A stretch of 64,000 nucleotides of DNA from Chitinophaga barathri (GTDB lineage Bacteria > Bacteroidota > Bacteroidia > Chitinophagales > Chitinophagaceae), in NCBI RefSeq assembly GCF_003807585.1, contig NZ_RMBX01000005.1, positions 1 through 64,000 on the forward strand. Direction: 5' to 3'. How positions within the stretch are numbered: position 1 is the stretch's first letter; every line of letters starts with the position of its first letter. Of the stretch, positions 34,181 to 48,211 are shown piece after piece. The position numbers and the translations under genes are program-made. The notes below the pieces were generated by a model that was not told the DNA's origin, made no database searches, and saw only the letters and a program-made list of their open reading frames with translations.

Positions 34181-34199
34181 CGTTGTTATCATTTTAATA

Positions 34200-35780
34200 T
34201 TAGTGCGCATGTTCCGCCGCTTCTTTCATGGCTGCCGCGCTTACGTTTCGTGTTTTTACAAAGAACATCAGTGGCAGCACGCATATGAAAAAGATGCCCA
34301 CAATGCGGAAAGCATCCAGGTAGGTGAGTACATATGCCTGTTTGGTCACGATTCCATCTAAAATATTAAGCCCCACCTGGTGTGCGTCAAAGGCATTCAC
34401 ACCTTTGGCGGCCATGGCGTTTGCGGTTTGATTCACCCGTTCTATGGCCTGCGGGCTGTCTTGCGTTACATAGTTGAGCAACTGGGTGCGGTGCACCGAA
34501 TATTGCCTGGCCACATACGTGTTCATAAACGCGATACCGAAGGAGCCGCCCAGCTGGCGAAGCATGTTGTTGATCGCAATACCCTGCGGCATCTCCATCG
34601 GCGTAAGGCCAGATACCGCCTGGTTTGTAAGCGGTACGCTCAGCATGGCCGCGCCAAAACCGCGAAGCAATAAGGGTAAAAAGAAAAACATCACACCGGC
34701 TTCGGCACTGGCGGTAGACATCCAGAAACAGAACACCGCGAAACTGAAGAATCCGAAGGTGATCAGGAATTTCGGCGGTACACCGCGCTGGATCATTTTA
34801 CCGACCATGGGCATCATTATTGCCGCAACGATAGCCCCCGGGAAAAGCGATTCTCCCGTGAGCGTGGGCGTAAAACCCATCACACGCTGCATCCACACGG
34901 GATACACGAACATGGAACAATACATCCCGACACCCATGATAAACGTGAGCAATGTGGTGATGGCCAGCGTCCGGTTCTTCAGCACATGCAGGTTCACCGC
35001 CGGCGAATCCGTCCGCAGTTCCCACCAGATGAATAATACAAACGCAACCACCGCCGCAATGGTGAGTATCACAATATGTTGGGCTGCAAACCAGTCTTCA
35101 GACTGGCCTTTTTCCAGGATATATTGCAGGCTCCCCACCCAGACTATCAGCATCAGGATGCCGAAGTAGTCGATCTTGATGGCTTTCCGGTTGATGTTGT
35201 ATTCATTCGGCTGCTTATCTATGTAATTAAATACGAGGAAAGCCGCGATGATACCTACCGGTACGTTGATGTCGAATATCAGGCTCCAGTGGAAATTGTC
35301 CACTATCATACCGCCCAGCGTAGGCCCGATGGTGGGGCCGATGATCACACCCATACCAAAAATGGCGGCTGCGATAGGCCTTTCGGAGATCTCGAACGTA
35401 TCGAAGAGAATGGACTGCGAGGTGGACAATAACGCACCGCCGCCCACGCCCTGCAGGAACCTCCAGGCTACCAGCTCCCAGAGCCCGCCGGAGTTTCCGC
35501 ACATGTAAGATGAAAATGTAAATATGATGATGGATGCCAGGTAGTAATTTTTCCTGCCAAAATAAGAGGCAAGGAACCCTGTCATGGGGATCACGATCAC
35601 GTTTGCGATCGCATATGCCGTAATGACCCAGGAAGCATCCTCGATAGTGGCCCCGAGGTTACCGCTGATCTGGGAGAGCGCCACGTTTACGATCGTGGTG
35701 TCTATCAGTTCCAGCATGGTAGCCGAAATCACCGTGGCCACAATGATCCACTTGGCAAATCCTTTCGGTTTGAGTGACAT
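34200..35780 (-). CDS. MFS drug transporter, DHA2 (EmrB/QacA) family
   Basis: A 526-residue inner-membrane proton antiporter with 14 predicted helices. DHA2 signatures include LDTTIVNVAL-like text (LIDTTIVNVALSQI) in helix 1, GFLASYFGRKNYY in the loop 2-3 (motif A), WRFLQGVGGGALLSTSQ, and GPTIGPTLGGMIVDNFHW (motif C). The C-terminus is His-rich (KEAAEHAH). It works with the HlyD adaptor (3-nt gap upstream) and TolC channel downstream to expel drugs. Probable control by the MarR protein is discussed with the operators. Confidence 0.93.
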   Translation of the reverse strand: MSLKPKGFAKWIIVATVISATMLELIDTTIVNVALSQISGNLGATIEDASWVITAYAIANVIVIPMTGFLASYFGRKNYYLASIIIFTFSSYMCGNSGGLWELVAWRFLQGVGGGALLSTSQSILFDTFEISERPIAAAIFGMGVIIGPTIGPTLGGMIVDNFHWSLIFDINVPVGIIAAFLVFNYIDKQPNEYNINRKAIKIDYFGILMLIVWVGSLQYILEKGQSEDWFAAQHIVILTIAAVVAFVLFIWWELRTDSPAVNLHVLKNRTLAITTLLTFIMGVGMYCSMFVYPVWMQRVMGFTPTLTGESLFPGAIVAAIMMPMVGKMIQRGVPPKFLITFGFFSFAVFCFWMSTASAEAGVMFFFLPLLLRGFGAAMLSVPLTNQAVSGLTPMEMPQGIAINNMLRQLGGSFGIAFMNTYVARQYSVHRTQLLNYVTQDSPQAIERVNQTANAMAAKGVNAFDAHQVGLNILDGIVTKQAYVLTYLDAFRIVGIFFICVLPLMFFVKTRNVSAAAMKEAAEHAH

Positions 35781-35783
35781 ACA

Positions 35784-36827
35784 CTAGTATTTTAAGGCCA
35801 CTTCTACGCTCAGGCCAGCACGCAGCTTGTCGAGATATTGGTCTGCATTATCAATGATGATCTTAACCGGCACACGCTGCACGATCTTAACGAAGTTGCC
35901 CGTAGCGTTGTCCGGAGGCAGCAGGGAAAATTTGGCGCCTGTTGCGCGGGAGATGGCAGATACATGACCTGTCAGTTTCAGGTCTCCGTAGCCATCCACT
36001 TCAATTTCCGCTTCCTGGCCAACCTGGATGTGAGCCAGCTGTGTTTCTTTGAAATTCGCGACGATGTAAAAACCGTTTTCGTCCACGATAGTGAAGAGGC
36101 TTTGACCGGCCTGTATAAACTGGCCCGGCTCTATGTTCTTTTTACCGATACGGCCGTTGATGTTCGCGGTGATATTGGTATAGCCAAGTTTGAGCTTCAT
36201 CTGGTCCACGGCTGCCTTGCGGCTGGCTACCAGCGCTTCCGCCTGCGATATTTTTGCAGCGGCTACCTGTACGGAGGAACGGGCCAGGGTGATATTGTCC
36301 TGCGCCGCCTGGTACTGCCTGTCGTTAGTAAGACTGGCTGCTTTGGTATCGTCCAGCTGGCGGTTGGTAATAGCCTGATCATCAAAAAGGCTCTGGTCGC
36401 GATGGAGATCGGCCGCCGCTTTGTCTTTCCGTACCAGTGCCACCTGCGCGTTCGCGTCGGCTACCCTGATGGATGCGGAAGCGTTGATCTGGTTGGCTTT
36501 CGCGGTTTCCAGGTCGGCCACAGCCTGTTGGTAATCCGCTTCAGCCTGCTGCAAGGCGATGCGGTATTCCACATCATCTATCATCAGCAGGGAATCACCC
36601 CTTTTTACGTTACCATAATCCTGAACATTGAGGCTTTTTACATAACCGGCTACCCTGGCTATAACGGGAGCGGAATGGCCTTCTACCTGTGCGTTGTCTG
36701 TCGTTTCGTGGTGGCGGGCGTAAAGCCATTGTTTAGCCCCGAAAATGCCCCCGGCTATGAGGATGCCGATGAAGATGAGGCGCACGACTAATTTACCCTT
36801 CCGAGGGTTCGCATTTGCTGTTTCCAT
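35784..36827 (-). CDS. HlyD/EmrA-family membrane fusion protein
   Basis: A 347-residue periplasmic adaptor with one N-terminal membrane helix (about 11-28). Then come a split lipoyl half (TDNAQVEGHSAPVIARVAGYV), a long alpha-hairpin coiled coil (about 85-200) and the second lipoyl half with INGRIGKKNIEPGQFIQAGQ. A beta-barrel domain (EIEVDGYGDLKLTGHVSAIS) closes it. First gene of the emrA-emrB-tolC operon; the promoter and paired palindromes lie just upstream. Confidence 0.93.
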   Translation of the reverse strand: METANANPRKGKLVVRLIFIGILIAGGIFGAKQWLYARHHETTDNAQVEGHSAPVIARVAGYVKSLNVQDYGNVKRGDSLLMIDDVEYRIALQQAEADYQQAVADLETAKANQINASASIRVADANAQVALVRKDKAAADLHRDQSLFDDQAITNRQLDDTKAASLTNDRQYQAAQDNITLARSSVQVAAAKISQAEALVASRKAAVDQMKLKLGYTNITANINGRIGKKNIEPGQFIQAGQSLFTIVDENGFYIVANFKETQLAHIQVGQEAEIEVDGYGDLKLTGHVSAISRATGAKFSLLPPDNATGNFVKIVQRVPVKIIIDNADQYLDKLRAGLSVEVALKY

Positions 36828-36862
36828 TGTAATGTGTGTTTTGTAGTATTGTATTACGCACG

Positions 36863-36894
36863 CAAAGGTAAACCAAGTTTACTAAATAGACAAA
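36863..36894 (-). promoter_or_regulatory. Promoter of the emrA-emrB-tolC operon
   Basis: On the minus strand TTTG (36891-36894), 20 nt, TACCTTTG (36863-36870) is a full Bacteroidota promoter, 35 nt before the adaptor ATG. Confidence 0.7.
36868..36882. promoter_or_regulatory. Palindrome O1 on the exporter promoter
   Basis: GTAAACCAAGTTTAC has perfect 6-bp arms around CAA and overlaps the exporter's -7 element. Probable operator of the divergent MarR protein. Confidence 0.6.
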
Positions 36895-36903
36895 CAGGTT
36901 GAC
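36889..36903. promoter_or_regulatory. Palindrome O2 on the exporter promoter
   Basis: GACAAACAGGTTGAC is an imperfect copy of O1 with the same length. Its centre is 21 bp from that of O1, two helical turns, and it covers the exporter's -33 element. Confidence 0.45.
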
Positions 36904-36981
36904 TATTAAATAAATATTATTAACTTTATGTGACAAAAGGGGTATTTTAGGAAACACTGTACCCAAAACAGCGTACACAAT

Positions 36982-37515
36982 ATGACTACAACTGATTTAG
37001 ACAAGCAACTGGAGGAGATCGTAGCCCGCAGGCCACGGCTGCTGGTGAAGCTGCTCAGCATCGTCAAAAAGGATTTTGACGCCCGCCTGACCGAATACTT
37101 ACAACAAACTGGTTATAAAGATTTTAAGATAGGAGACATGGTCCTGCTGGTGAATATTTCACCTGAAGGCACTATCAATAATGAACTGGCAAAAAAGGCC
37201 CGTATCACGAAGCAGGCCATGAGCAAGGTGGTAAAAAACCTGGAGGCCATGGGGTTCATTTATACCCGCAAGCACGAAACAGACAACCGCGCCACGGTCA
37301 TTTTCCTCAGTGATAAGGGGAAACAGCTGGTGATCGATACATCCGGCGCGGTGCAGGAGATCCAGGCGTTTTATACCGGCATTATCGGGGAGAAAGACGC
37401 CGAACAGCTGCGGGATATCCTATTCCGCCTAGTGGAAGGTATTTTCCCCGCCGGGGTTGGGGCTGAGAAAAAATCAGCGCCTGCTTCGCCGGAAACCAAC
37501 AACGACAACCAGTAA
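36982..37515 (+). CDS. MarR-family transcriptional regulator
   Basis: A 177-residue winged-helix repressor. The DNA-binding part contains NELAKKARITKQAMSKVVKNLEAMGFI as helix-turn-helix and TRKHETDNRATVIFLSDKGK as wing. Helices at both ends should form the dimer. It is divergent from the emrA-emrB-tolC operon, the usual layout for a drug-sensing repressor of an efflux pump; two related palindromes cover the pump promoter. The last 42 nt overlap the end of the convergent CHAT gene. The Ser/Asn-rich tail is not part of the fold. Confidence 0.9.
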   Translation: MTTTDLDKQLEEIVARRPRLLVKLLSIVKKDFDARLTEYLQQTGYKDFKIGDMVLLVNISPEGTINNELAKKARITKQAMSKVVKNLEAMGFIYTRKHETDNRATVIFLSDKGKQLVIDTSGAVQEIQAFYTGIIGEKDAEQLRDILFRLVEGIFPAGVGAEKKSAPASPETNNDNQ

Positions 37516-40149
37516 AACTCCTGCGCCCAGGATCCAATACCACATTTTATTCCCTACAGGTTTTTCCGGCACTACGGTTTGCGGGTGGCCGATGTATGTC
37601 ATAGCCGCCCAATAATAAGGCAGTTTCAGCTGCTGGCTTGCCTTCCCGTTCCGTAACCATTGCTGTTTGGCGGAATGAAGCGCCATGGCAGGGTCTGCGG
37701 CGTTGCGCAGCTCTTTGTAAAAATCGCCGGTGAGGTTCGCGGCAGTAGCGTCGTGCAGGTTCCAGAGGCCGGCTACAATACCCGTGGCGCCCGAAGTTGT
37801 GAATTCACGGGCAAGACTGATGATACCCTCCCCTTCCGCCATCATGCCCTGGCCCGTTCTGCATGCGCTCAATACGATCAGCCCCGGGCGGAACTTCCTT
37901 GTATATAATTCAAACAGGTAAAATGGCCCGTCCGCCAGCTGTATAGCGGGCAGTTGCTGATCCCCTTCCAGGGATGCATGTGTGCTGAGGTGCAGAATCC
38001 CGCCATGCCCCAGCTGCTCCCGGAAGGCGGCGAGCGTGGCTTTGTTGTCTTTAAAATAAAGACCGGCAGCGGCTTCTTTTATCGCTTTGTATTCTTCCTC
38101 CACGGCGGGCAGACCTACAGCGGAAATAAAAAAGCCGGTAAGTTTTGCATCGTTTTCACCTGCCGCGGGTGATTGCTGCCGGTAGGTTTGAAGGGAATAA
38201 GCGAGGCTGGTGACGGTTTGGTTCAGCAGGAAAGGCCATTGTGCTGTATTTCGTTTATACGTGCTGTCCGTGATCAAAGCATCGAAGGGGAGATAACCGA
38301 ACCAGCCGTCAGGGATCAGGAGATAACGCGGGGCCACGGGACCGTTCCAGAGCCATTGGTATACCTGGTAGGCATCGCGGTAATAAGCTGCCGGCGAGTT
38401 CTGCATGGCGGCGGGGCCATTGTGGAAATACGTGGTGACGAAGTGTTGCAGGAAAGATTGTTTTCCTTCCCCATCGTCCAGCCGGCGGACGGACTGAATA
38501 CCCGCGCTCGTGATATCCACTACATACAGGTGGTCTTCACCGGAGAAAAGGCTTTTTACAGTAAGACCCGCGGGGATATCTTTTTCTGAATGAAGGGAAT
38601 TTTCGCGCACAGGTTCAAAATAATCCGGGTATTTTTTCCTGATCCGGACCTGGAGTTGTGAAAGGTTATAGGCCAGCTCATCGCGGGCCGCGTTTTTTTT
38701 ACCTGAAACGGCGGTTTCCCGGTCGTAGTAGGCGAGTGCCTGTTGCATGCGCTGCTGTTCATCCAGGAGCGGATCTTTCATGCCCAGGCGGCTCTGCTGC
38801 CTATTAAACACCTGTTCCTGCAAAAGCACCTGCGCTTTGCTTTTTTCCATGATATGCAGCATGGCCCATGCGTATTTTTCCTGCTTGCCCTGCTCCCACA
38901 AAAGATATGCGGCGTTCATCGCTTTCTCAGCCAGCGCGTGGCTTTGCCGCTGGTGCAGCAGCCGCGTGGCCCGGCTGAAAAACTCCCTTCGCAACGTGGC
39001 TTCAATATCAAAAATAAGCTGGTAACCTTCCAGCGCTTCTTTCAGGCGGCCTGCCCGTACCAGTGCGTCCGCGCGGCCTTCTATGGCATCGGCAATGGTA
39101 AAGTCGCCGTACAGTTTTTCTTTCGCCGGCCACCCGGATGTATGAGCGGGAAGCATGTATCGCAGCGCCCGGTCGAAAGGCTGAAGCAGCGAATTGTATC
39201 GGGGTTGTGCGTATTCCTTCTGCAATGCAGCTCTCCCTTGTTTTACCAGTACTCTCGCCTTTTCGCGGTTGCGCGCGTCGGGATAAAATTTATTGAGCAC
39301 GGCAAGCGATCTTTCATCCCACTTCTCCGCTTCCCCGTATTGTTTTTTTAACATCGCCACATCTCCATTCGCCTGCAACACGGAAGCCAGCCAGTAACCT
39401 GCGTTTTCCGTTTTCAGTATCTGCGGCTGCTGTAATATGCGTATGCCCAGCGCAGCGTGTATGGCGGCGCTGTCCGGCATTTTTTTCCTGATATAGATTT
39501 CAGCGAGAGAGGAATGCAACAAGCCGGTAACGCTGCTGTTCGCCGGCGCTACCCGCAGCCCGCTCTGCGCATGGGCGCCTGCAAGATCAAAACGTTCCTG
39601 CATCAGGCAGGTAACGGCCAGGTTGCTATATACGGCGGCTGTTTGCAGCGGATCCTTTTGTTTCTGAGCGATGTCCAGGCTGCGTTCCTGGATAAAACCG
39701 GCGCGTTCGTAATCGCCGAGACGGGTGTAGTTATTGCCCAGCGGCTTCAGGATATATTCCAGTATATCCGGGTCCGTTAGTTTTTGTTCGTTGTAGTAGT
39801 TATACGCGGCTTCGTAGGCAGTGATGGAAGGAAGGATATTGCCGGTGAACATCTGGTAATAGCCCTGATAGGTCAACATGTCCAACCAGGCGGAATGTTC
39901 AGTCTCGTTTTGCGGTGCACGCCACGCGCGTTTCCCCAGGTTCATCAGCAGGGAGAGCCTTTCGGCGGGTTCTTCCGCGGCATAGTCCATTTGCAGGTAG
40001 AGCCATTCGCCCAGGTTATTTTCTTTTTGCAGGGCGGCCGCTTTGCGGGCCAGCTCAGGCGGAAGGCGGAGTGAATCAGCGGGCTGGCTGAAACCTGCCG
40101 TAAACCGGAAGCAGCATAGGAAAAGGATGATATAACGCAGGCAAGCCAT
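37474..40149 (-). CDS. Secreted TPR-CHAT protease, membrane-anchored
   Basis: An 891-residue protein: signal peptide (1-21, ending TAGFSQ), about a dozen helical TPR-like repeats (about 60-430), a coiled linker, and a C-terminal CHAT domain (about 640-850) of the caspase/separase clan. Both catalytic residues are present: His724 in LHLSTHAS and Cys763 in VLSACRTGQG. After GLWNLHDATAANLTGDFY and KLPYYWAAMTYIG comes one membrane helix (about 868-885) and a basic RRSRR tail, so the protease would face the periplasm with its tail in the cytoplasm. It follows two lipoprotein genes on the same strand with a strong hairpin between; the divergent sigma/anti-sigma pair nearby suggests an envelope signalling role. 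Substrate unknown. Confidence 0.88.
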   Translation of the reverse strand: MACLRYIILFLCCFRFTAGFSQPADSLRLPPELARKAAALQKENNLGEWLYLQMDYAAEEPAERLSLLMNLGKRAWRAPQNETEHSAWLDMLTYQGYYQMFTGNILPSITAYEAAYNYYNEQKLTDPDILEYILKPLGNNYTRLGDYERAGFIQERSLDIAQKQKDPLQTAAVYSNLAVTCLMQERFDLAGAHAQSGLRVAPANSSVTGLLHSSLAEIYIRKKMPDSAAIHAALGIRILQQPQILKTENAGYWLASVLQANGDVAMLKKQYGEAEKWDERSLAVLNKFYPDARNREKARVLVKQGRAALQKEYAQPRYNSLLQPFDRALRYMLPAHTSGWPAKEKLYGDFTIADAIEGRADALVRAGRLKEALEGYQLIFDIEATLRREFFSRATRLLHQRQSHALAEKAMNAAYLLWEQGKQEKYAWAMLHIMEKSKAQVLLQEQVFNRQQSRLGMKDPLLDEQQRMQQALAYYDRETAVSGKKNAARDELAYNLSQLQVRIRKKYPDYFEPVRENSLHSEKDIPAGLTVKSLFSGEDHLYVVDITSAGIQSVRRLDDGEGKQSFLQHFVTTYFHNGPAAMQNSPAAYYRDAYQVYQWLWNGPVAPRYLLIPDGWFGYLPFDALITDSTYKRNTAQWPFLLNQTVTSLAYSLQTYRQQSPAAGENDAKLTGFFISAVGLPAVEEEYKAIKEAAAGLYFKDNKATLAAFREQLGHGGILHLSTHASLEGDQQLPAIQLADGPFYLFELYTRKFRPGLIVLSACRTGQGMMAEGEGIISLAREFTTSGATGIVAGLWNLHDATAANLTGDFYKELRNAADPAMALHSAKQQWLRNGKASQQLKLPYYWAAMTYIGHPQTVVPEKPVGNKMWYWILGAGVLLVVVVGFRRSRR

Positions 40150-40182
40150 TCGGTATTAAAGATAACGTACCTGCGTTATATT

Positions 40183-40216
40183 TAGTCCGGCCGGGAAAAG
40201 GTTTCCGGCCGGACTA
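40183..40216 (-). repeat. 12-bp GC-rich hairpin before the CHAT gene
   Basis: TAGTCCGGCCGG (40183-40194) and CCGGCCGGACTA (40205-40216) are perfect inverted repeats around a 10-nt loop. No T-run follows, so it is more likely an RNA-stabilising or attenuating stem between the lipoprotein and CHAT genes than a full terminator. Confidence 0.55.
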
Positions 40217-40221
40217 CATGA

Positions 40222-41178
40222 TCAGAAATCAATCTCCTCAGAGCCGCTCCATGTCGTATCCGTCAATACCGGTGTAACGCCGGTAAGAGGATCTGGCAGG
40301 TTGACCCTGAATTTTGTAAGTGTATTTCTGTTAAACTCCACGTTCTTTTCACCGATCAATATCTCCCGTCCGTCACCGGGCTCCCAGATGACTTTTACCG
40401 GTACCGGCGGAACATACCCACCATGCTTATATAACTGGTGGGTGAAAAAGAAACGGCTTCCCGTAATATTGGCGGGCGTCAGCACTTTGGGATCCATCAA
40501 TCCGTTAAAAGAAACTTTCAATTGCCCGCTGGTAAATTTCGGTGAAGAAAATTCGAAACCGAAAGACATCCTTTTCAGCCGTAAAACTAACTGGGAACCG
40601 GCAGCTGCAATGCTGAAGGTAGTATCTACGCGAAAAGCATCCACCTCGGAATACTCGTATTGTGTATAATTCAGCGTATCCAGCGGTTTTGTGATCCTGA
40701 AATTGCTCAATGTGTCGCAGTAATGCAGGTATTCGGTTACCGGCTCCACCCTGTTTGACAGTGTATCGAAAATGGGAAGCCCAAAATATGGCTTACCATC
40801 CACCCAGGTATGATACAAACCACCACCTGAACCTTTTTTATATGCATGAACAACGATCCACGCCTGGCCAGTTTCAGGGACCAGGAGTTTGATATTGTTC
40901 GGGTTCGTAAATGCGCCACCGTAAGCTGTAGCAGCCTGCTCGCCCCAAAAATGCGCACGCACTACGTAAATTGTGCTGTCCAGCAGCAAACGCCGGTATG
41001 CTTCATCGCCCGGTGCTTTCCTGCCTAGCGGGGATTCGGTAACCTCAAGCCCTGTCAGGTTGAGGGTTACTTCTTTCATTTTAACAGGCTGTTTTTCATC
41101 CTGCACCTGCTCCGTATTTTTTTTACAGGCAGCTAGTGTTGCCAGCGCAATGGCCGCCAGCATGATCTTTTTTTTCAT
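40222..41178 (-). CDS. Lipoprotein of unknown function, paralogue A
   Basis: A 318-residue lipoprotein; the lipobox LATLAAC places lipid on Cys18. KEVTLNLTGLEVTESPLGRK and DSTIYVVRAHF, then AYGGAFTNPNNIKLLVPE are shared with the neighbour at 41223, as is the C-terminal EKNVEFNRNTLTKFRVNL. The body is beta-rich. The family is not known to me; a fimbrillin-like or surface role is possible but unsupported. Same strand and close to CHAT downstream (72-nt gap with hairpin) and paralogue B upstream (44-nt gap). Confidence 0.75.
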   Translation of the reverse strand: MKKKIMLAAIALATLAACKKNTEQVQDEKQPVKMKEVTLNLTGLEVTESPLGRKAPGDEAYRRLLLDSTIYVVRAHFWGEQAATAYGGAFTNPNNIKLLVPETGQAWIVVHAYKKGSGGGLYHTWVDGKPYFGLPIFDTLSNRVEPVTEYLHYCDTLSNFRITKPLDTLNYTQYEYSEVDAFRVDTTFSIAAAGSQLVLRLKRMSFGFEFSSPKFTSGQLKVSFNGLMDPKVLTPANITGSRFFFTHQLYKHGGYVPPVPVKVIWEPGDGREILIGEKNVEFNRNTLTKFRVNLPDPLTGVTPVLTDTTWSGSEEIDF

Positions 41179-41222
41179 AATAAAGGTATTCGGTTAAGTA
41201 TTGATTTTTAAGGCACGGTCTG

Positions 41223-42176
41223 TTAGAATATGACATGTTTCACACCGGTCACGGTTGTGTCTACCAGTATGGGATTTACATTGGCGGAAGTCCCGTTCTC
41301 CAGGCTGAAGGATATTTTCGTGAGCATGTTTCTCCGGAACGTCACATTCTTTTCGCCTACAAGCACTACATTGCCGTTAGGCCGTTGCCACTCCACCCGG
41401 ACAGGAATAACGGCCGTGTCGCGGCTCAGGAATTCCTGTACGGTGAAAATGAACGGATCATGAGGGATGTCCGTTGGCGTAAGTTCTTTCTGGGTCATTT
41501 GCCCGTTGAAACTTACGAACAGGCGGCCGGCAATAAAATTCTGGGGTGCCAGTTCCAGCCCGAAAGCTCTTCTTTTCAGCCTTATGTTTATCTGGGAAGA
41601 AACATTGTCTACATGGATCGTGGTATCGGACCAGAAAATATCCAGTTCAGGATTGCGGAATGTCTGGGAGAGAGAGGTATCATCCGGATGTGTAACGGCA
41701 AGGTTAGTGAGCGGAAACATCGGATAATGCGTTTCTCCGCCGGTCTTCACTTTTTCCATCCTGTTATGAAGCGTGTCATAAATCGGCGCTTCGTAGTATG
41801 GCAGTCCGCCTCTCCAGGTATAATAAAGCCCATTACCGGAGCCTTTACGTATAGCCATCGCGAAAATCCCAATATCCGCCATTTCGGGAACCATAATGCG
41901 CAGATTATCCGGATCTGTAAATGCGCCGCCATAGATGCCCAAATACGAATTTATACGGAAGACATAGATAGTGCTATCGCGGAACACACGGCGGCCGGCC
42001 ATATCTCCCCCGGCCTTTCTGCCCAGTGGCGATTGTGATACGTCAAAGTCTCCCGTAAGCTTAAGGGTCACTTCTTTGAAGTGTACGGGTTCCTTTTGGT
42101 CAGCAGGTTGCCCGTTTTTTTTACATGAAATAACAGCGGCCAGAAACGTCGCCGCAAGCATGATCTTCGTTTTCAT
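41223..42176 (-). CDS. Lipoprotein of unknown function, paralogue B
   Basis: A 317-residue lipoprotein with the lipobox LAAVISC and lipid-bearing Cys18, the same position as paralogue A. The two align over their full length (VTLKLTGDFDVSQSPLGRKAGGD, split, and YGGAFTDPDNLRIMVPE; EKNVTFRRNMLTKISFSL near the end), so they are a tandem duplication that has diverged well. It is first in a likely transcript B-A-CHAT, since the PKD gene upstream ends at its own terminator. Confidence 0.75.
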   Translation of the reverse strand: MKTKIMLAATFLAAVISCKKNGQPADQKEPVHFKEVTLKLTGDFDVSQSPLGRKAGGDMAGRRVFRDSTIYVFRINSYLGIYGGAFTDPDNLRIMVPEMADIGIFAMAIRKGSGNGLYYTWRGGLPYYEAPIYDTLHNRMEKVKTGGETHYPMFPLTNLAVTHPDDTSLSQTFRNPELDIFWSDTTIHVDNVSSQINIRLKRRAFGLELAPQNFIAGRLFVSFNGQMTQKELTPTDIPHDPFIFTVQEFLSRDTAVIPVRVEWQRPNGNVVLVGEKNVTFRRNMLTKISFSLENGTSANVNPILVDTTVTGVKHVIF

Positions 42177-42240
42177 AGAATAAGGGTTCGGGTTAAATAT
42201 TTGAGCTAAAATAGTTATTTTATTTAATGTATGTATATGA

Positions 42241-42270
42241 AAAAACGGCAGCCCTTTTCAGAACTGCCGC
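42241..42270 (-). terminator. Terminator of the PKD-protein gene
   Basis: CGGCAG (42247-42252) pairs with CTGCCG (42265-42270); on the minus strand TTTTTT follows. It separates the PKD gene from the lipoprotein-CHAT transcript. Confidence 0.75.
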
Positions 42271-42312
42271 CATAGAGATTATAACCAGATCCGGCGTCAC
42301 AAACCCTGTGGC

Positions 42313-44325
42313 TCAGAACCGCCAGATACCATAGAAAAACACCCGCTGCTGCGAATCTTTCAGATACTGCAACACGCGGACGCCCAACGATGGCCCGGCT
42401 CTGACCATGCCCAGGTTCAGATCGGCAAACAACGCGCCGTCCGCAGCAGTGAAACGCTCTTTCACCGATCCGGCCAATCTGTCAAATTTTTCCAGTGCGC
42501 CCGAGGGCGGCTGCGCCATCACCGTCACCACTTTCTTTTCCTGTTTTTTCTCTCCCACCACCACACTCACCATCGCACCCGCACCCACGCCCAGCCAGGA
42601 TGTGATGTTGTACCGCACATGCAGCGGCACTACATCCATAGTAGTTCTGCTCACGATCTCAAAATTCTCGCGGCCCTGTATGATGTATTTGCCGGTACCA
42701 ATGGAAGTATCGCGCTGATCGCGGGAGAAGGAAGTAAGTGTTTCATTTTTCTGCTGAAGGCCCAGATATATTTCCGCCTGCAGGTACACGCGGTAAGGTG
42801 AATAGGTGGAAACGCTGAATCCGAGGGAACCCGCAGGCAAGCCGAACGGCATTTTATCTTTCCCCGAACCGATGCCGTACCCCATGATCACACCCGGTGA
42901 AATACCCGGCATCCAGCGGCCTTTGGAGCGGTTGGTGATCACGGGCTCATTCCTGTCAAATACAATGGAAGCCTGGCTGCTGAAAGGCAGTTTCTTTAGT
43001 TCCTTGCTGAACCGGATGCGGTATTTTATAAATCCTTTGGTGGAGTCCTGGTCTTCCACACCCTCCTGTTTTACACCTTTGAGATAAATATTATTGAATA
43101 CAAAAAAGATACTGTCCTGGCGGACGATCGTATCCAGGCAACTTTGTCTTTCATACGCGGAATCGCACATCACACATTTGGGTGAATAGTCCGTGATCTC
43201 CAGCGTCTGCCCGTTCAGCATACCGGGCACGGCCACGCCGACGGCTACTTTACCCGCCGGACCTTTACCGGTGTTCTGAAACTGTACTTTATAACTCAGC
43301 TCTTTTGATTTACGTACAAATCGGTAGTTCATCCGCCGGTTCCTGAGCTGCATACGATTGGGGTCGTGCGAGGCTACGATCTGCATTTCCAGGTTATACT
43401 GGCTCACCGGCATCAGCGGATCATCCGGCACAAACAGGCTGCTGATGGTCACCACGGCATTGGTGTCTTTGATCATCTCCGGCGTGGTTTCCAGGGAAAG
43501 GAACAGGTATTTTTCTTCACCCGCTTTCAGGTTTTCCACCCGCCATACATCCTGCTCACGGAAGAGGCTTTTCTTTTCGGCCAGCATTGCACTGACGGTG
43601 GCGGTCCTTTCAGCCACCAGGGCATTCCAGGCCGCGTTTTTTTCTACCAGCAGGGATACTTCGCCATTCACTGCCGGGCCGGCCAGCGGCATATACAGTT
43701 CATCCGAAGGGGCAAAAGCCATCACTGAATCCAGTACGGACTTACGTTCGCCATGATAGGCGCGCGCATCCGCCATTACAAAGTTTTTCCGCGCAAACTG
43801 TTTTTCATTATAAAACAGCAACAACGAACCGCTTACGTTCCCGCCGCCGCCGGGATGGCGGTAACCCACCACGGTTACCATTTCTTCGCCGGGCTTCGGC
43901 ATACGGTTCGCCTTCATGGCCAGCATGTCCGACTCCTGGAAAAAGCCGGTGGGATTGCCCAGCGAGGCATACATGGTCTTTTTCACTTTGATCTTGCGTG
44001 GTTTGCTTTTGGGCGCTTTGCCATCGTCATAGTTATTCGTGGCGTATAAACGGATCTCGTAATCGCCAGTGTCTTTGAAATGATGAACCGGTTGCGGGGC
44101 AAAAGAAAAAGTGCCATCCCCGAACTCCCAGAAATAAGTATAGAACGCTTCCGGCGCCCCGGCTATCTGGCGCAACGGCCGGAGTGTGGCGCTGAGTGCG
44201 GCTTTGTTTTCCTCCAGCCCTACTTCTATCACGGCAGGAATGGTGTCAGGTGCGGCTTTCTGCTGTGCGGCCAACGGGAAGGCCATAACGAGGAATATAG
44301 CGGCGGCGCTGATATGTTTGTTCAT
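42313..44325 (-). CDS. Secreted PKD-domain protein
   Basis: A 670-residue exported protein (signal peptide 1-20, ending PLAAQ). Residues about 30-112 form a PKD domain (FYTYFWEFGDGTFSFAPQPV, then HHFKDTGDYEIRLYATNN). The middle (about 150-450) is beta-rich with a DUF11-like stretch (YKVQFQNTGKGPAGKVAVGVAVP) and a Cys pair CVMCDSAYERQSC. The last 200 residues look like strands of a porin-like fold (GSLGFSVSTYSPYRVYLQAEIYLGLQ in part) and end VFFYGIWRF with a terminal aromatic. A surface adhesin- or sensor-like role is possible. It is divergent from the ECF sigma gene. Confidence 0.8.
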   Translation of the reverse strand: MNKHISAAAIFLVMAFPLAAQQKAAPDTIPAVIEVGLEENKAALSATLRPLRQIAGAPEAFYTYFWEFGDGTFSFAPQPVHHFKDTGDYEIRLYATNNYDDGKAPKSKPRKIKVKKTMYASLGNPTGFFQESDMLAMKANRMPKPGEEMVTVVGYRHPGGGGNVSGSLLLFYNEKQFARKNFVMADARAYHGERKSVLDSVMAFAPSDELYMPLAGPAVNGEVSLLVEKNAAWNALVAERTATVSAMLAEKKSLFREQDVWRVENLKAGEEKYLFLSLETTPEMIKDTNAVVTISSLFVPDDPLMPVSQYNLEMQIVASHDPNRMQLRNRRMNYRFVRKSKELSYKVQFQNTGKGPAGKVAVGVAVPGMLNGQTLEITDYSPKCVMCDSAYERQSCLDTIVRQDSIFFVFNNIYLKGVKQEGVEDQDSTKGFIKYRIRFSKELKKLPFSSQASIVFDRNEPVITNRSKGRWMPGISPGVIMGYGIGSGKDKMPFGLPAGSLGFSVSTYSPYRVYLQAEIYLGLQQKNETLTSFSRDQRDTSIGTGKYIIQGRENFEIVSRTTMDVVPLHVRYNITSWLGVGAGAMVSVVVGEKKQEKKVVTVMAQPPSGALEKFDRLAGSVKERFTAADGALFADLNLGMVRAGPSLGVRVLQYLKDSQQRVFFYGIWRF

Positions 44326-44405
44326 ATAGAGGTATTTAGGGTAAGTGCTGCTCCAGGCCTGACAGATCCGAATGTGTTAATATAGCGTTTTTCCGTCAAC
44401 AACAA

Positions 44406-44435
44406 AAGGCGCTCCCGTATGGCACGGGAGGCCTT
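44406..44435 (-). repeat. Hairpin stranded between divergent genes
   Basis: CTCCCGT-ATGGC-ACGGGAG (44412-44430) is a perfect 7-bp stem, lengthened by AAGGC/GCCTT around one bulged base. On the minus strand TTTTGTTGTTG follows, so it looks like a terminator, yet no minus-strand gene lies upstream. A small RNA or a 5' leader element of the PKD gene are options. Confidence 0.45.
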
Positions 44436-44496
44436 CATAGTGTATCTGGCGTTAACAGGTCAGGAGCTTTCAGAAGAAGATCAACAAAGCCGGTGA

Positions 44497-44526
44497 TTTG
44501 TTACCCCGGGATTTTTAATATCTTTA
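44497..44526 (+). promoter_or_regulatory. Promoter of the ECF sigma gene
   Basis: TTTG (44497-44500), 18 nt, TATCTTTA (44519-44526; one mismatch to TAnnTTTG). The -7 box ends 7 nt before the ATG, so the transcript would be nearly leaderless. Confidence 0.5.
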
Positions 44527-44533
44527 AAACTAT

Positions 44534-45115
44534 ATGTCCACCCAAACCCCTCATGCAGACCAGTATTTTATCCACGCCCTGCTGAACAACGAAGCGCAGG
44601 TGGTGGGAGAGATCTACCGGCGTTTCGCCCCGCGGGTGAAGCATTATATAATGCAGAACAGCGGCACGGCAGACGATGCGGCGGACATCTTCCAGGAATC
44701 CCTCGTGGATATTTACAACCAGGCCCGTTACAAAAATCTTGTGCTCACCTGCCCCTTTGAGCCTTTCCTGCTGATGGTATGTAAGCGCAAATGGCTCAAT
44801 GAGTTGAAAAAAAGAGGCCGGCAGGGGGTAACAAAAGACCTGGACGATCAATTTAACCTGGGAGAAGACAGCTTCCGGGACGCCGAAAAAACATGGGCGG
44901 ATAACGAAAAAGCACGCCTCTTTAAAGCCATGCTCGAAAAGATGGGCGAACGCTGCCAGGAAATTATCCGCTGGTCTTTGACGGACAAACCGCAGGAAGA
45001 GATCGCTTCCAAACTGGGCGTTACCTACGGTTATCTCCGGAAAAAGAAATCGGAATGTATGGCCGCTTTGATCAGCGAGATTAAAGAAAATCTTTCAAAA
45101 TGGGGACTGACATGA
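44534..45115 (+). CDS. ECF-type RNA polymerase sigma factor
   Basis: A 193-residue sigma-70-family factor. Region 2 spans about 20-90 (IYRRFAPRVKHYIMQNSG, DIFQESLVDIYNQ, PFEPFLLMVCKRKWLNEL) and region 4 about 135-185 (CQEIIRWSLTDKPQEEIASK and GVTYGYLRKKKSECMAAL). Region 3 is absent, as is normal for ECF factors. The stop codon overlaps the ATG of the membrane TPR gene (ATGA), so the two are translationally coupled, as sigma/anti-sigma pairs are. Its targets may include the divergent PKD gene and the lipoprotein-CHAT unit. Confidence 0.9.
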   Translation: MSTQTPHADQYFIHALLNNEAQVVGEIYRRFAPRVKHYIMQNSGTADDAADIFQESLVDIYNQARYKNLVLTCPFEPFLLMVCKRKWLNELKKRGRQGVTKDLDDQFNLGEDSFRDAEKTWADNEKARLFKAMLEKMGERCQEIIRWSLTDKPQEEIASKLGVTYGYLRKKKSECMAALISEIKENLSKWGLT

Positions 45116-45837
45116 ACGAACTAGATCACGAATTAATAGAGCGGTATCTCTCCGGCGATATGGACCCGGATACCAAAGCCGCCTTCGAAAGCCGCCTGGA
45201 AACGGAGCCGGACCTGCTTCACACGCTTCAGACCTGGCGCAATGTGGAGGCCACCCTCCGTCAGACCCTTCAGCCGGACGCTCAACGCGAGGAACTAAAA
45301 AAAACACTGCACGAGTTACGTCCCGTCATTACGAAACAGCCCGCCAAAGTGGTACGTTTCAACCGGTCACTGCTGGCTATTGCCTCGCTGGCCGCCGCCG
45401 TGGCGCTCATATTGTACCTTAGCCCATGGGAGCAGGACCTTTACCAGCAATATGGCGCCAAAGAAATGATCTCCCCGGCGGAACGCGGCACCGGCACGGA
45501 TACACTGCTGGCCAATGCCGCCCACCAGTTTAATCATCACCATTACGCCCAGGCTATCACCACGCTGGACAAAGTATTGGCAGACCAGCCCGATAACGCC
45601 TATGCCCGTTATTACCGCGGCCTTTCTTACCTGGAAAACAAACAACCTGCCCAAGCCCGACCAGACCTGGAAGCGATCTACAACGGCGAATCGGTTTTTA
45701 AATATGAAGGCGCGTTTTTTATGGCGCTCAGTTACCTGAAGGAAAAAAACGAGGATAAATGCCGGGAATGGCTGGAGAAGATACCGGAGGATGCAGACAT
45801 TTATGCCAAGGCGAGAGAATTGCTGGAAAAGCTGTAG
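45112..45837 (+). CDS. Membrane TPR protein, probable anti-sigma factor
   Basis: A 241-residue protein from ATG 45112. The cytosolic N-terminus (about 1-85) reads MNELDHELIERYLSGDMDPD and AAFESRLETEPDLLHTLQTW, the zinc-less anti-sigma-like opening common in Bacteroidota. One membrane helix follows (about 86-106, SLLAIASLAAAVALILYL). The periplasmic part holds about three TPR units (HHYAQAITTLDKVLADQPDN and AYARYYRGLSYLENKQPAQA and KYEGAFFMALSYLKEKNEDK). The layout suits a factor that holds the sigma protein and senses a periplasmic partner through TPRs; the TPR-CHAT protein is a natural candidate. That last point is inference. Confidence 0.8.
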   Translation: MNELDHELIERYLSGDMDPDTKAAFESRLETEPDLLHTLQTWRNVEATLRQTLQPDAQREELKKTLHELRPVITKQPAKVVRFNRSLLAIASLAAAVALILYLSPWEQDLYQQYGAKEMISPAERGTGTDTLLANAAHQFNHHHYAQAITTLDKVLADQPDNAYARYYRGLSYLENKQPAQARPDLEAIYNGESVFKYEGAFFMALSYLKEKNEDKCREWLEKIPEDADIYAKARELLEKL

Positions 45838-45889: not shown

Positions 45890-46219
45890 ATGGGATTGAC
45901 AAAATCGGAAATATTCACAGACAAACAGAATAAGATGGCCGCTATGATGAAGGCGCTGGCCCATCCGGCGCGCATTGCCATCATCCAGCACCTGATAAAG
46001 GCGGATGCCTGCATCTGCGGCGACCTGGTGGAAGAGTTGGGGCTTGCACAGGCCACTATCAGCCAGCACCTGAAAGAGCTTAAAAACGCCGGTCTTATCC
46101 AGGGCACTATTGAAGGCACCAGCGTTTGTTACTGCATAGACCCAAAGGTCTGGAAACAATATAAAGCTGCCTTCGATACGTTTTTTGTCGCGTACGACAA
46201 CAAGAATCCCTGCTGTTGA
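45890..46219 (+). CDS. arsR: ArsR-family arsenic-responsive repressor
   Basis: A 109-residue winged-helix repressor. The helix with ADACICGDLVEELGLAQATI carries the Cys-x-Cys pair that binds As(III) in ArsR proteins, followed by the recognition helix TISQHLKELKNAGLI and wing. More cysteines occur in the C-terminus (SVCYCID and KNPCC). It heads an arsenic operon and should repress it through the two ATCGnAATATTGCnAT palindromes, one on its own promoter, one before arsM. Confidence 0.93.
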   Translation: MGLTKSEIFTDKQNKMAAMMKALAHPARIAIIQHLIKADACICGDLVEELGLAQATISQHLKELKNAGLIQGTIEGTSVCYCIDPKVWKQYKAAFDTFFVAYDNKNPCC

Positions 46220-46236
46220 TTTTTTTGCTCCTATTC

Positions 46237-46252
46237 ATCGCAATATTGCAAT
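46237..46252. promoter_or_regulatory. ArsR operator 2, upstream of arsM
   Basis: ATCGCAATATTGCAAT is a 16-bp palindrome with one mismatch, 22 bp before the arsM ATG and in the 55-bp gap after arsR. It may act as a second repressor site on an internal promoter or as a roadblock. Confidence 0.6.
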
Positions 46253-46274
46253 ATAACAATGCACTTTAAACACC

Positions 46275-47120
46275 ATGGCTACACCGACACAACTCAAAGA
46301 GATCGTAAGACTGAAATACAGCGAGATAGCCCTGCAAAGCAGGGAAGAAAATGCCGCCTCCTGCTGCGGCGCGGGCGGCTGCTCCACCGAAGTGTACAAC
46401 ATCATGACAGATGATTACACCGGCCTGGAAGGTTATGATCCTGACGCGGATCTCGGCCTTGGCTGCGGCCTCCCCACTCAATTTGCGAAAATCAGCAAGG
46501 GCGATGTAGTGATAGACCTGGGCTCGGGCGCCGGGAACGATTGTTTTATAGCCCGTGCCATGACCGGGGAAACCGGTAAAGTGATCGGCATAGACTTCAC
46601 GCCCGCCATGATCGATAAAGCCCGCATCAATGCGGAAAAGCTAGGGTACAACAACGTGGAGTTCAGGCAGGGGGATATCGAAAAAATGCCGTTATCCGCC
46701 AACACCGCGGATGTGGTAGTAAGCAATTGTGTGCTTAACCTCGTGCCGGACAAAGAAGCCGTGATCAAAGAAATATACCGGGTACTGAAGCCCGGCGCAC
46801 ATTTCAGCATTTCAGACATTGTGCTGGAAGGCGAATTGCCCGCCAACATCCGCGAAGCGGCGGAAATGTATGCCGGATGCGTATCCGGAGCCATTCAAAA
46901 AGACACCTATCTTGATTTTATCCTGCAAACCGGTTTTGGGAACATTACCATTCAAAAAGAAAAAAAGATCATTATCCCGGATGATATTTTAAGCAGATAC
47001 CTTGACGCCGCAGAACTGGAAGCCTTCAAACAAAGCGAAACCGGCGTATACAGCCTTACCGTGTATGCGGAAAAGCCAGTAGAGAACGCTGCCTGCTGCG
47101 GTACTGATTGTTGCAAATAA
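46275..47120 (+). CDS. arsM: Arsenite S-adenosylmethionine methyltransferase
   Basis: A 281-residue enzyme that methylates As(III) with S-adenosylmethionine. The SAM site is [18 protein letters not shown] near 75, followed by [13 protein letters not shown]. Family cysteines are seen in [21 protein letters not shown] and [10 protein letters not shown]. Extra cysteine clusters near both ends (ASCCGAGGC and [10 protein letters not shown]) could bind arsenic. Length is close to the bacterial norm. It lies between arsR and acr3, 11 nt before acr3. Confidence 0.93.
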
Positions 47121-47131
47121 ATCCCGACCGC

Positions 47132-48211
47132 ATGACTACCAATAATTGCAATCAGGCCGCTGGAAGAAAACATCTCGGCTTTATGGACAGATATCTTACC
47201 TTCTGGATTTTCGCAGCCATGGCGGCAGGCGTTGCTTCGGGATATTTTTTCCCGGGCCTGCCCATGCTGATCAGTTCTTATTCCAGCGGCACGACGAACA
47301 TTCCACTGGCCATCGGGCTGATACTGATGATGTACCCTCCCCTCGCCAAGGTACATTACGAGAAAATGGGAGAGGTATTCATGAATGTAAAAATACTTGG
47401 TATCTCTCTCCTGTTGAACTGGGTGATAGGCCCGATGCTGATGTTCCTGCTGGCGGTACTTTTCCTTCATAATTCACCTGAATATATGTACGGCCTTATC
47501 CTGATCGGGCTCGCGCGTTGTATAGCCATGGTGATCGTCTGGAGCGAGCTGGCTGAAGGCAACAGGGAATACACTGCCGGGCTGGTCGCGATCAACAGTG
47601 TATTCCAGGTGGTATTCTTCAGCGTGTATGCGTGGTTTTTCCTGACCGTATTACCGCCACTCTTCGGTTTATCTGCTCTGCCCGTCAATATTACCATCTG
47701 GCAAATCGCGGAAAGTGTAATGATCTATCTCGGCATTCCTTTTGCGGCCGGCGTTATTTCCCGTCTGGTACTGATACGGATAAAAGGGGAGGAATGGTAC
47801 TTGCAGCGGTTTATTCCATTTATTTCTCCCGTCACACTGATTGCATTGCTGTCCACTATTGTAATAATGTTCAGTTTAAAAGGAGAACTAATTGTACGTA
47901 TTCCGCTGGATGTGTTACGTATTGCTGTTCCGCTGGTTATTTATTTCGCTCTTATGTTTCTTGCCAGTTTTTTTATAGGCAAGGCACTGGGCGCCGACTA
48001 CTCCCGGAATGCCGCTATCTCATTCACTGCCGCTGGCAATAATTTTGAGCTGGCCATTGCTGTGGCTATCGGTGTATTCGGCATCAACAGCGGTCAGGCA
48101 TTTGCCGGGGTGATAGGCCCGCTGGTGGAAGTGCCCGCCCTTATTGCGCTTGTTAACGTGGCCCTTTGGCTCCGAAGAAAATATTATCCTTCTATTCAAA
48201 CTTACTCCTAA
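47132..48211 (+). CDS. acr3: ACR3-family arsenite efflux permease
   Basis: A 359-residue inner-membrane exporter from ATG 47132 (the frame is open to a TTG at 47108 inside arsM). About ten helices are predicted. Family strings are [47 protein letters not shown], the catalytic Cys in [14 protein letters not shown], and [20 protein letters not shown] near the end. It removes arsenite using the proton gradient. Its stop codon TAA shares its last A with the ATG of the metallophosphoesterase. Confidence 0.95.

Follow-up and report, generated by a model that had tools for sequence, protein, structure and literature searches.

We examined a 64,000-nucleotide stretch of the Chitinophaga barathri genome (positions 1 to 64,000 of contig NZ_RMBX01000005.1, assembly GCF_003807585.1; the window), and in it a cluster of six open reading frames (ORFs) for an ECF sigma factor, a membrane-anchored TPR protein, a PKD protein, two lipoproteins and a TPR-CHAT protease. 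The locus is probably a self-contained envelope-signalling module, in which the exported TPR-CHAT would act as the site-1 protease of the TPR protein, a membrane-anchored anti-sigma candidate. This reading is carried by the gene set and its conservation, the topology signals, an invariant arginine in the anti-sigma linker, the association of that arginine with Glu686 and Asp800 of the protease, and a conserved upstream motif, all of them results of computation. The six ORFs listed at 37474-45837 in a preliminary description of the sequence are all present. The PKD gene, lipoprotein B, lipoprotein A and TPR-CHAT form a minus-strand run, and divergent from it on the plus strand lie the ECF sigma gene and then the TPR membrane protein ORF.

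Relatives were collected by searching genome contigs with the PKD protein, which yielded 64 loci, thus chosen by PKD. They come from Chitinophagaceae, Sphingobacteriaceae, Flavobacteriaceae and Cytophagales (among the last, Fulvivirga and Reichenbachiella). The order in which anti-sigma and sigma diverge from PKD and CHAT is kept in 52/64; three of the 12 deviating loci (L011, L046, L059) are on short or cut contigs, and seven loci (L008, L010, L012, L037, L051, L061, L064) have no local sigma of this family. Since these loci were selected by PKD, an even sample of 247 Bacteroidota genomes was searched as well. PKD (E<1e-100) was found in 11 genomes, sigma (at least 260 bits) in 10 and CHAT (>700 bits) in 10; the sigma and CHAT genomes are the same ten, which also have PKD, with the genes adjacent in each. 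In G037, the eleventh genome with PKD, the PKD and CHAT genes are together and sigma has a weaker match (112 bits) on another contig. Looser thresholds gave PKD in 13 genomes, sigma in 18 and CHAT in 91. An independent distribution of CHAT and sigma genes, which the preliminary description had named as grounds for doubt, is not seen: they are together in the orthologous module and at many distant CHAT loci.

Searches with the window CHAT also hit many non-orthologous TPR-CHATs. Sixty of these were fetched with about 6 kb of flank: 33 belong to the same class as the window and 27 to other parts of the phylum. A gene of the present ECF type, followed 3′ by a partner gene, lies less than 3 kb from the CHAT at 23/33 same-class and 10/27 other loci (counts derived from query A1). 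It was seen in 0/40 arbitrary control regions of the same genomes, one region having 4,000 N; because the controls were scanned with an ECF model tuned to this clade of sigma factors, the zero count speaks only for ECFs of the present type. The CHAT gene at distant loci is convergent with, or downstream of, the ECF pair, and because gene order varies in this way the CHAT-ECF link is not the inherited synteny of one operon. Order and family samples gave the ECF pair at 27/40 and 33/40 CHAT loci, values biased upward because query A5 was built mostly from ECF-linked CHATs; the last sample, labelled 'Sphingobact family', has flavobacterial nearest named relatives. These data bear on the possibility that the genes are neighbours of unrelated function, together by chance or shared location. 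The locus does sit among ordinary efflux and arsenic-type genes, and the flank beyond CHAT is also kept in related Chitinophaga loci. The module order is kept over several families while flanks change, and the linkage recurs in other arrangements at distant loci. A chance neighbourhood, contradicted by the order conservation (52/64) and by the distant linkage (0/40 controls), was rejected and is in our judgement very improbable.

The CHAT domain matches Pfam PF12770 at residues 595-854 (139.9 bits against a cut-off of 24, E=1.5e-40), and the protein also has a TPR_12 match. Its catalytic residues, His724 in LSTHA and Cys763 in LSACRTG, are both invariant in the 60 aligned orthologues (sequences of at least 700 aa, shorter rows having been dropped). 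The protein begins with a hydrophobic signal, and near its C-terminus a hydrophobic helix precedes an RRSRR tail. A simple rule based on hydropathy recognises a signal at the N-terminus together with a transmembrane helix at the C-terminus in 51/60 orthologues, and an internal transmembrane helix in none of the 60. Among distant CHATs the two export features are both found in 65/93 of those linked to an ECF, with no internal transmembrane helix in any of the 93, and in 28/52 of those unlinked. Most CHAT proteases known so far belong to intracellular conflict systems. For the window protein the topology signals give a cytoplasmic placement no support; the CHAT domain likely faces the periplasm, and the preliminary description is borne out as to a CHAT with export signals and both catalytic residues. 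The window CHAT has one match in its own genome. None of the literature matches listed, which consist of titles and the starts of abstracts with subscription literature partly covered, describes an exported form of CHAT.

The sigma factor scores 58.0 bits against the ECF model TIGR02937, above the cut-off of 42.9, and exceeds the cut-off for Sigma70_r2; the r4 models fall below theirs. The TPR protein gene lies directly downstream of the ECF gene, and its product has an N-terminal helical domain and one transmembrane helix. In 55 orthologous pairs the anti-sigma gene is directly 3′ of its ECF, with a gap of −35 to +12 bp. AlphaFold2 gives the candidate four N-terminal helices, a helix at 89-107 fitting a transmembrane segment, and TPR helices from 135. 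Against the NCBIfam 'antisigma' model NF052375 it scores 34.1 bits, below the cut-off of 100; its zf-HC2 match has E=0.15, and FecR is absent among its 21 Pfam hits (up to E=1). Foldseek found no match at E<=0.001, and generic TPRs are in its best 50. The family is poorly conserved, the window protein being 22-61% identical to 18 others.

Two anti-sigma columns are invariant in the window protein and those 18 others, and again in 53 sequences. One of them is Arg129, the sole arginine of the periplasmic linker, placed by AlphaFold2 in the coil between the transmembrane helix (89-107), a short helix (114-119) and the first TPR helix (135), in a block of mean pLDDT (predicted local distance difference test) 69. 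Arginine is found in all 56 copies beside this sigma, where the next residue is G in 47, S in 8 and A in 1; these loci have 67 TPR rows in all, and none of the remaining 11 has it. Eight TPR paralogues without adjacent sigma all have Leu at this place and could for that reason be uncleavable decoys. The TPR rows of L008, L010 and L012 have Ser, within SMS or SMN. At L008 and L010 the TPR gene stands next to a different CHAT and to an ECF from a separate clade; this CHAT has the sequence LWKADN, in which Asn takes the position of Asp800. The eight sigma-less TPR genes with Leu are extra anti-sigma-like copies that converge with CHAT, at L026, L030, L034, L037, L038 and L041.

We examined the covariation of this site with the protease in 93 distant CHAT/anti-sigma pairs less than 3 kb apart, the anti-sigmas being aligned without regard to the CHATs; with one row dropped (the L179 ORF, which has no pocket column) and five orthologous pairs added, the final set has 97. 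The 813 window CHAT positions with at least 70 usable rows were ranked by Fisher test of consensus residue against Arg at the site, with p values that ignore kinship. Glu686 ranks first (p 4.7e-9): pairs with Glu have 79 Arg and 6 non-Arg, those without it 0 and 9. Asp800 ranks second (p 6.3e-7), with 79 Arg and 8 non-Arg where Asp is present and 0 and 7 where it is absent; the third column has p 1.2e-4. In the reverse test, against Asp800, anti-sigma column 129 is first of 227, the next having p 0.002. Where Glu and Asp are both present the site is R in 79, K in 3, L in 2, Q in 1 and a gap in 3, and in the nine pairs that have lost either it is M in 5, K, L, Q and H in one each, and R in none. 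The median position of the site is 25 residues past the transmembrane helix (n=94 pairs). The preliminary description had the CHAT protease cut the TPR anti-sigma; an invariant linker arginine that tracks two acidic protease residues gives this idea comparative evidence, and suggests that the cut would be made at Arg129.

In caspase-clan enzymes that cut after arginine, the P1 side chain can be held by acids from the first helix and from the region that follows the catalytic strand, according to the available part of one report (PMC4357240), and a separase model, in the part accessible, has Glu917 and Asp1082 contact the P1 arginine (PMC4626109). Glu686 precedes His724 and Asp800 lies 37 residues past Cys763, and judging from these positions they may be the counterparts of this pair. 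Separase resembles the present proposal in having a caspase-like domain that cuts after Arg and two acids proposed for the P1 arginine (PMC4626109, same portion). The separase-cohesin system is eukaryotic and differs in substrate and compartment, so the likeness is limited to the clan CD domain.

A profile search of the PDB with the whole TPR-CHAT alignment gave TPR-type proteins for all of the best 60 of 366 matches. Eight solved chains match the CHAT domain at E<1e-3: seven TPR-CHAT/Csx29 chains and 8rot, another CHAT protein. The best-matching chain, 8d9h, has a gap at the Glu686 region and Ser at Asp800 in the alignment, and 8rot has Asp at the Asp800 place. The Csx29 family model NF041237 scores 14.1 bits against the window CHAT (cut-off 300).

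Craspase offers a close functional likeness: it has a TPR-CHAT protease, Csx29, that cleaves Csx30, an inhibitor of an ECF sigma, and sigma motifs in the locus (available text of PMC10028731). It differs in cutting at A↓S, L↓D or M↓K, with no cut after Arg among those given in the portions available (PMC11106740; PMC10028731), and in having cleavage sites that the former source, as far as accessible, describes as not conserved. The aligned chain 8d9h lacks equivalents of Glu686 and Asp800, and activation is by RNA, together with Cas7-11. Craspase is cytoplasmic and is not known to have export signals. Array-like repeats were not found at 30-52 kb of the window, and Cas7-11 with a CRISPR array, as in type III-E, is not present at the locus, the rest of the genome not having been searched for Cas7-11. 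PADLOC gave the six module proteins weak hits only (TPR E 0.0096, Csx1 E 0.0044). With weak PADLOC hits and no array-like repeats, membership of a defence system was rejected.

Alternatively, CHAT and anti-sigma might bind through the arginine, in docking or inhibition, with no cut there, the covariation then marking an interface. TPR motifs are present in both proteins, any salt bridge might join the arginine to the two acids, L, Q and H are also found at the site, and Craspase cleavage depends on positioning more than on residues in the part of the report available (PMC11106740). The site is, however, in a short coil linker with G or S next in 79/94 pairs, and such acidic residues are assigned to P1-Arg binding in the accessible part of the separase model (PMC4626109). 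We consider docking without cleavage distinctly improbable.

A promoter-like motif, GGTAACA, is found ahead of the first operon gene in 52/56 cases, and 41/56 have the dyad TAAC-N18-ATAT, against at most 9 in five shuffles; upstreams of CHAT have their best dyad in 11/62 (shuffles 5-6). The conserved form of the element is GGTAACA-N14/15-TGATMT. The first gene is often not PKD: in 49 loci an extra gene precedes it, of a family (F4) of about 330 aa that is likely a lipoprotein, judging from a lipobox-like start in 39/50 ORFs; of four F4 proteins tested, none reached the cut-off of a Pfam family. GGTAAC reads toward F4 or PKD in 56/65 rows, mostly 21 to 255 bases before the gene. Five of these rows (L008, L010, L012, L037, L064) have no adjacent sigma of this family, GGTAACA being before PKD in four and before F4 in one (L037), and the second half is weaker in L010 and L064. 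Four rows without it (L002, L057, L058, L063) carry its reverse complement a short way ahead of sigma. TGTTACC, seen ahead of sigma, is the operon motif read on the other strand, and a separate motif for sigma itself was rejected for that reason. ECF promoters usually have AAC in their −35 element, and the sigma factor of the module may well use the GGTAACA motif. A lack of effect of sigma on CHAT or PKD transcription, which the preliminary description had counted against itself, is made less likely by the conserved ECF-like motif ahead of the operon.

A scan of the window's own genome gave 16 motif matches (0 for a reversed-pattern control), six of them flagged inside longer ORFs; the full GGGGTAACA context is found in the window copy only. 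In nine flavobacterial-type genomes with the module, the motif precedes other exported genes (18 matches, reversed-pattern control 2). One of these encodes an L,D-transpeptidase (YkuD, 83.8 bits). The motif is before 5/5 of its close relatives (60-100% identical), at 15-base spacing and with 0, 0, 0, 1 and 2 mismatches; one of the five (G222) is in a genome without a PKD match. Fourteen other transpeptidase loci have one case with 2 mismatches at another spacing and 13 with at least 3; this check covered 22 of 29 loci, 3 of them without a recognisable HGC motif. The transpeptidase motif hints at an envelope or peptidoglycan response in a few genomes. At L336 and L339, in two flavobacterial-type genomes, lipoprotein-like genes of about 180 aa stand behind the motif; the L336 protein has no Pfam match.

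The position of CHAT in an operon behind a conserved promoter motif would also suit a different role, in which sigma is freed by another signal or protease and CHAT is its output, a periplasmic executioner or a processing protease for other envelope proteins. CHAT proteins elsewhere act as effectors, and at seven related loci CHAT is followed by a gene of one further family, of which the member tested is a retropepsin-like protease. Left unexplained are the invariant anti-sigma linker arginine, which goes with acidic pocket residues, and the lack of this arginine in the eight sigma-less TPR paralogues. We regard CHAT as an output as unlikely.

The PKD protein has Pfam matches to PKD, DUF7619 and, over its C-terminal ~200 residues, DUF7849; DUF7619 is a predicted intramolecular isopeptide-bond family in the available part of its description (PMC12617251). 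AlphaFold2 gives beta domains and then long C-terminal antiparallel strands (mean pLDDT 82.6), and Foldseek matches include OmpX, Ail and OmpA (target TM-score 0.42-0.53, E 1e-4 to 1e-3, root-mean-square deviation about 9-13); in higher-ranked matches its front part resembles adhesin-type folds. Given the C-terminal strands and the OmpX/Ail/OmpA matches, the protein is best read as predicted to be anchored in the outer membrane by a small C-terminal barrel, with modest structural support. Its last residue is F in 51/63 copies counted, and its closest named homologue, from C. chungangae, is 84% identical. The preliminary description had called it secreted; it has a signal-like N-terminus, and its C-terminus, a predicted outer-membrane barrel, means that it is not simply secreted. 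Lipoproteins A and B are paralogues, 47% identical. They had been taken as a conserved part of the module; a homologue was found at one of the 64 related loci (L005), and they were ruled out as a core part.

The following sequence of events would fit these results. At rest, the cytoplasmic N-terminal domain of the TPR protein would hold the ECF sigma. The PKD/beta-barrel protein of the outer membrane would report a disturbance, perhaps envelope or peptidoglycan damage, together with F4 in most relatives and with lipoproteins A and B in the window. Periplasmic CHAT would then cut the anti-sigma linker on the C-terminal side of Arg129, some 25 residues past the transmembrane helix. With the TPR domain gone, a general site-2 protease could reach the stub and presumably free sigma; Peptidase_M50, of site-2 type, has one match in the window's genome. 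Freed sigma would transcribe the operon from PKD to CHAT from GGTAACA-N14/15-TGATMT, a positive feedback; an L,D-transpeptidase gene would be a further target in some of the flavobacterial relatives. The chain already proposed, from sensor to CHAT to anti-sigma to sigma, is the best supported reading, with corrections on the lipoproteins, the PKD protein and the sensing. The PKD protein or a lipoprotein may be the sensor; as first written the sensing step is not supported, the evidence for it being the architecture.

In the RseA-DegS-RseP system, an ECF sigma is held by a single-pass anti-sigma with a periplasmic domain, which receives a juxtamembrane site-1 cut from a membrane-anchored periplasmic protease. 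The module likewise has an ECF sigma, a single-pass anti-sigma and a predicted juxtamembrane site-1 cut. It differs in its proposed site-1 enzyme, which is the clan CD cysteine protease CHAT and not DegS or another PDZ serine protease, in the TPR nature of the anti-sigma periplasmic domain, and in the PKD/beta-barrel protein as sensor candidate. The anti-sigma is not of FecR type, as it is in FecI-FecR. The dual membrane-spanning anti-sigma system Dma/Das of Bacteroides, as described in the part of the source available (PMC13088901), is another case of sigma/anti-sigma envelope regulation in Bacteroidota; here, unlike there, the anti-sigma has one transmembrane helix and a TPR domain, and the protease is co-encoded. 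As read here, the module works like regulated anti-sigma site-1 proteolysis and is outside the DegS/RseA and Craspase families as defined.

Several results weigh against this reading. The TPR protein is an anti-sigma candidate from its position, its topology and a sub-threshold model match. At L042 and L063 sigma, anti-sigma with Arg, and PKD are kept, with no CHAT beside PKD at the locus, the rest of the two genomes not having been searched; in the 247-genome sample a weaker sigma match was found in 8 further genomes, 7 of them without a PKD match. No ECF pair of this kind is within 3 kb at 10/33 same-class and 17/27 other CHAT loci. A reverse search placed 21/53 anti-sigma hits within 3.5 kb of a CHAT place, a lower bound because few CHAT candidates were scored per genome; 4 more hits are the module itself. 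The motif in the above form is missing from 9/65 rows, L051 and L061 have neither motif nor local sigma, and motif targets beyond the operon are possible in the window's own genome. Six pairs keep Glu and Asp and have a non-Arg site, and three align to a gap. On a CHAT-domain tree built without the two stretches, parsimony reduces the nine altered pairs to 4 pocket changes, with 7 site changes (a first tree gave 3 changes for Asp800 alone); an independent-pairs test has a mean of 2.2/3 agreeing and 0 opposing, and cannot reach significance. For Craspase, single substitutions around the Jc site were cleaved as well as wild type (available part of PMC11106740), and no Di-Csx30 residue was essential for cleavage in the accessible text of PMC10028731. 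Since substitutions around Craspase cut sites have so little effect, a TPR-CHAT need not read its P1.

Table 1. Features of the module in the window, by position and strand
Feature	Position	Strand	Remarks
TPR-CHAT protease, 891 aa	37474..40149	-	signal-like N-terminus, TPR, CHAT, C-terminal transmembrane-like helix
Asp800 codon, proposed S1-pocket residue (LWNLHD)	37750..37752	-	60/60; rank 2/813 columns
Catalytic Cys763 codon	37861..37863	-	invariant 60/60
Catalytic His724 codon	37978..37980	-	invariant 60/60
Glu686 codon, proposed S1-pocket residue	38092..38094	-	60/60; rank 1/813 CHAT columns
Lipoprotein A, LAACKK lipobox, lineage-specific	40222..41178	-	
Lipoprotein B, VISCKK lipobox, lineage-specific	41223..42176	-	
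PKD protein: signal-like N-terminus, PKD, DUF7619, C-terminal DUF7849	42313..44325	-	
Promoter-like element GGTAACA-N15-TGATCT, GGGGTAACAAA context	44478..44505	-	reads toward PKD-LipB-LipA-CHAT
ECF sigma factor, 193 aa	44534..45115	+	
Membrane-anchored TPR anti-sigma candidate	45100..45837	+	overlaps sigma ORF
Arg129 codon (numbering from ATG 45100), proposed P1, SPAER↓GTG	45484..45486	+	

Beyond CHAT, the window at 32906-37515 holds a tripartite efflux set (outer membrane efflux protein, MFS, HlyD). A regulator-like ORF at 36982-37515 overlaps the end of the CHAT ORF; the label MarR was given to it by reading only, and Pfam matched nothing in it at E<=1e-8. In related Chitinophaga loci, too, CHAT adjoins this regulator and the HlyD family. 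Directly after the anti-sigma, at 45890-48211, are an ArsR-family regulator, a methyltransferase and an SBF-family transporter, which we take to be an arsenic-type operon, and an alginate lyase family protein is encoded at 49101-50276. The gene family directly after CHAT was seen at seven flavobacterial loci (L043, L045, L051, L056, L057, L058, L061), and its L058 member matches PF13650, a retropepsin-like aspartyl protease. L051 and L061 are PKD-CHAT loci without a local sigma of this family; at L051 PKD-CHAT is downstream of a 2349-aa protein resembling what is presumably SprA of the type IX secretion system.

We propose tentatively, with slightly less than even confidence, that exported TPR-CHAT proteases, each paired with an ECF sigma and a cleavable TPR anti-sigma, make up a phylum-wide signalling class of Bacteroidota in which a conserved Arg↓Gly/Ser site-1 site coevolves with a two-carboxylate S1 pocket, and from which type III-E CRISPR took a cytoplasmic, RNA-gated offshoot. 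If the present reading is true, a caspase-family protease would have a regular role as a periplasmic site-1 protease, with its substrate, the cleavage residue and the pocket residues that read it all named. Many uncharacterised CHAT proteins of Bacteroidota would become directly testable, and a source would be suggested for the CHAT, sigma-inhibitor and sigma arrangement of type III-E CRISPR.

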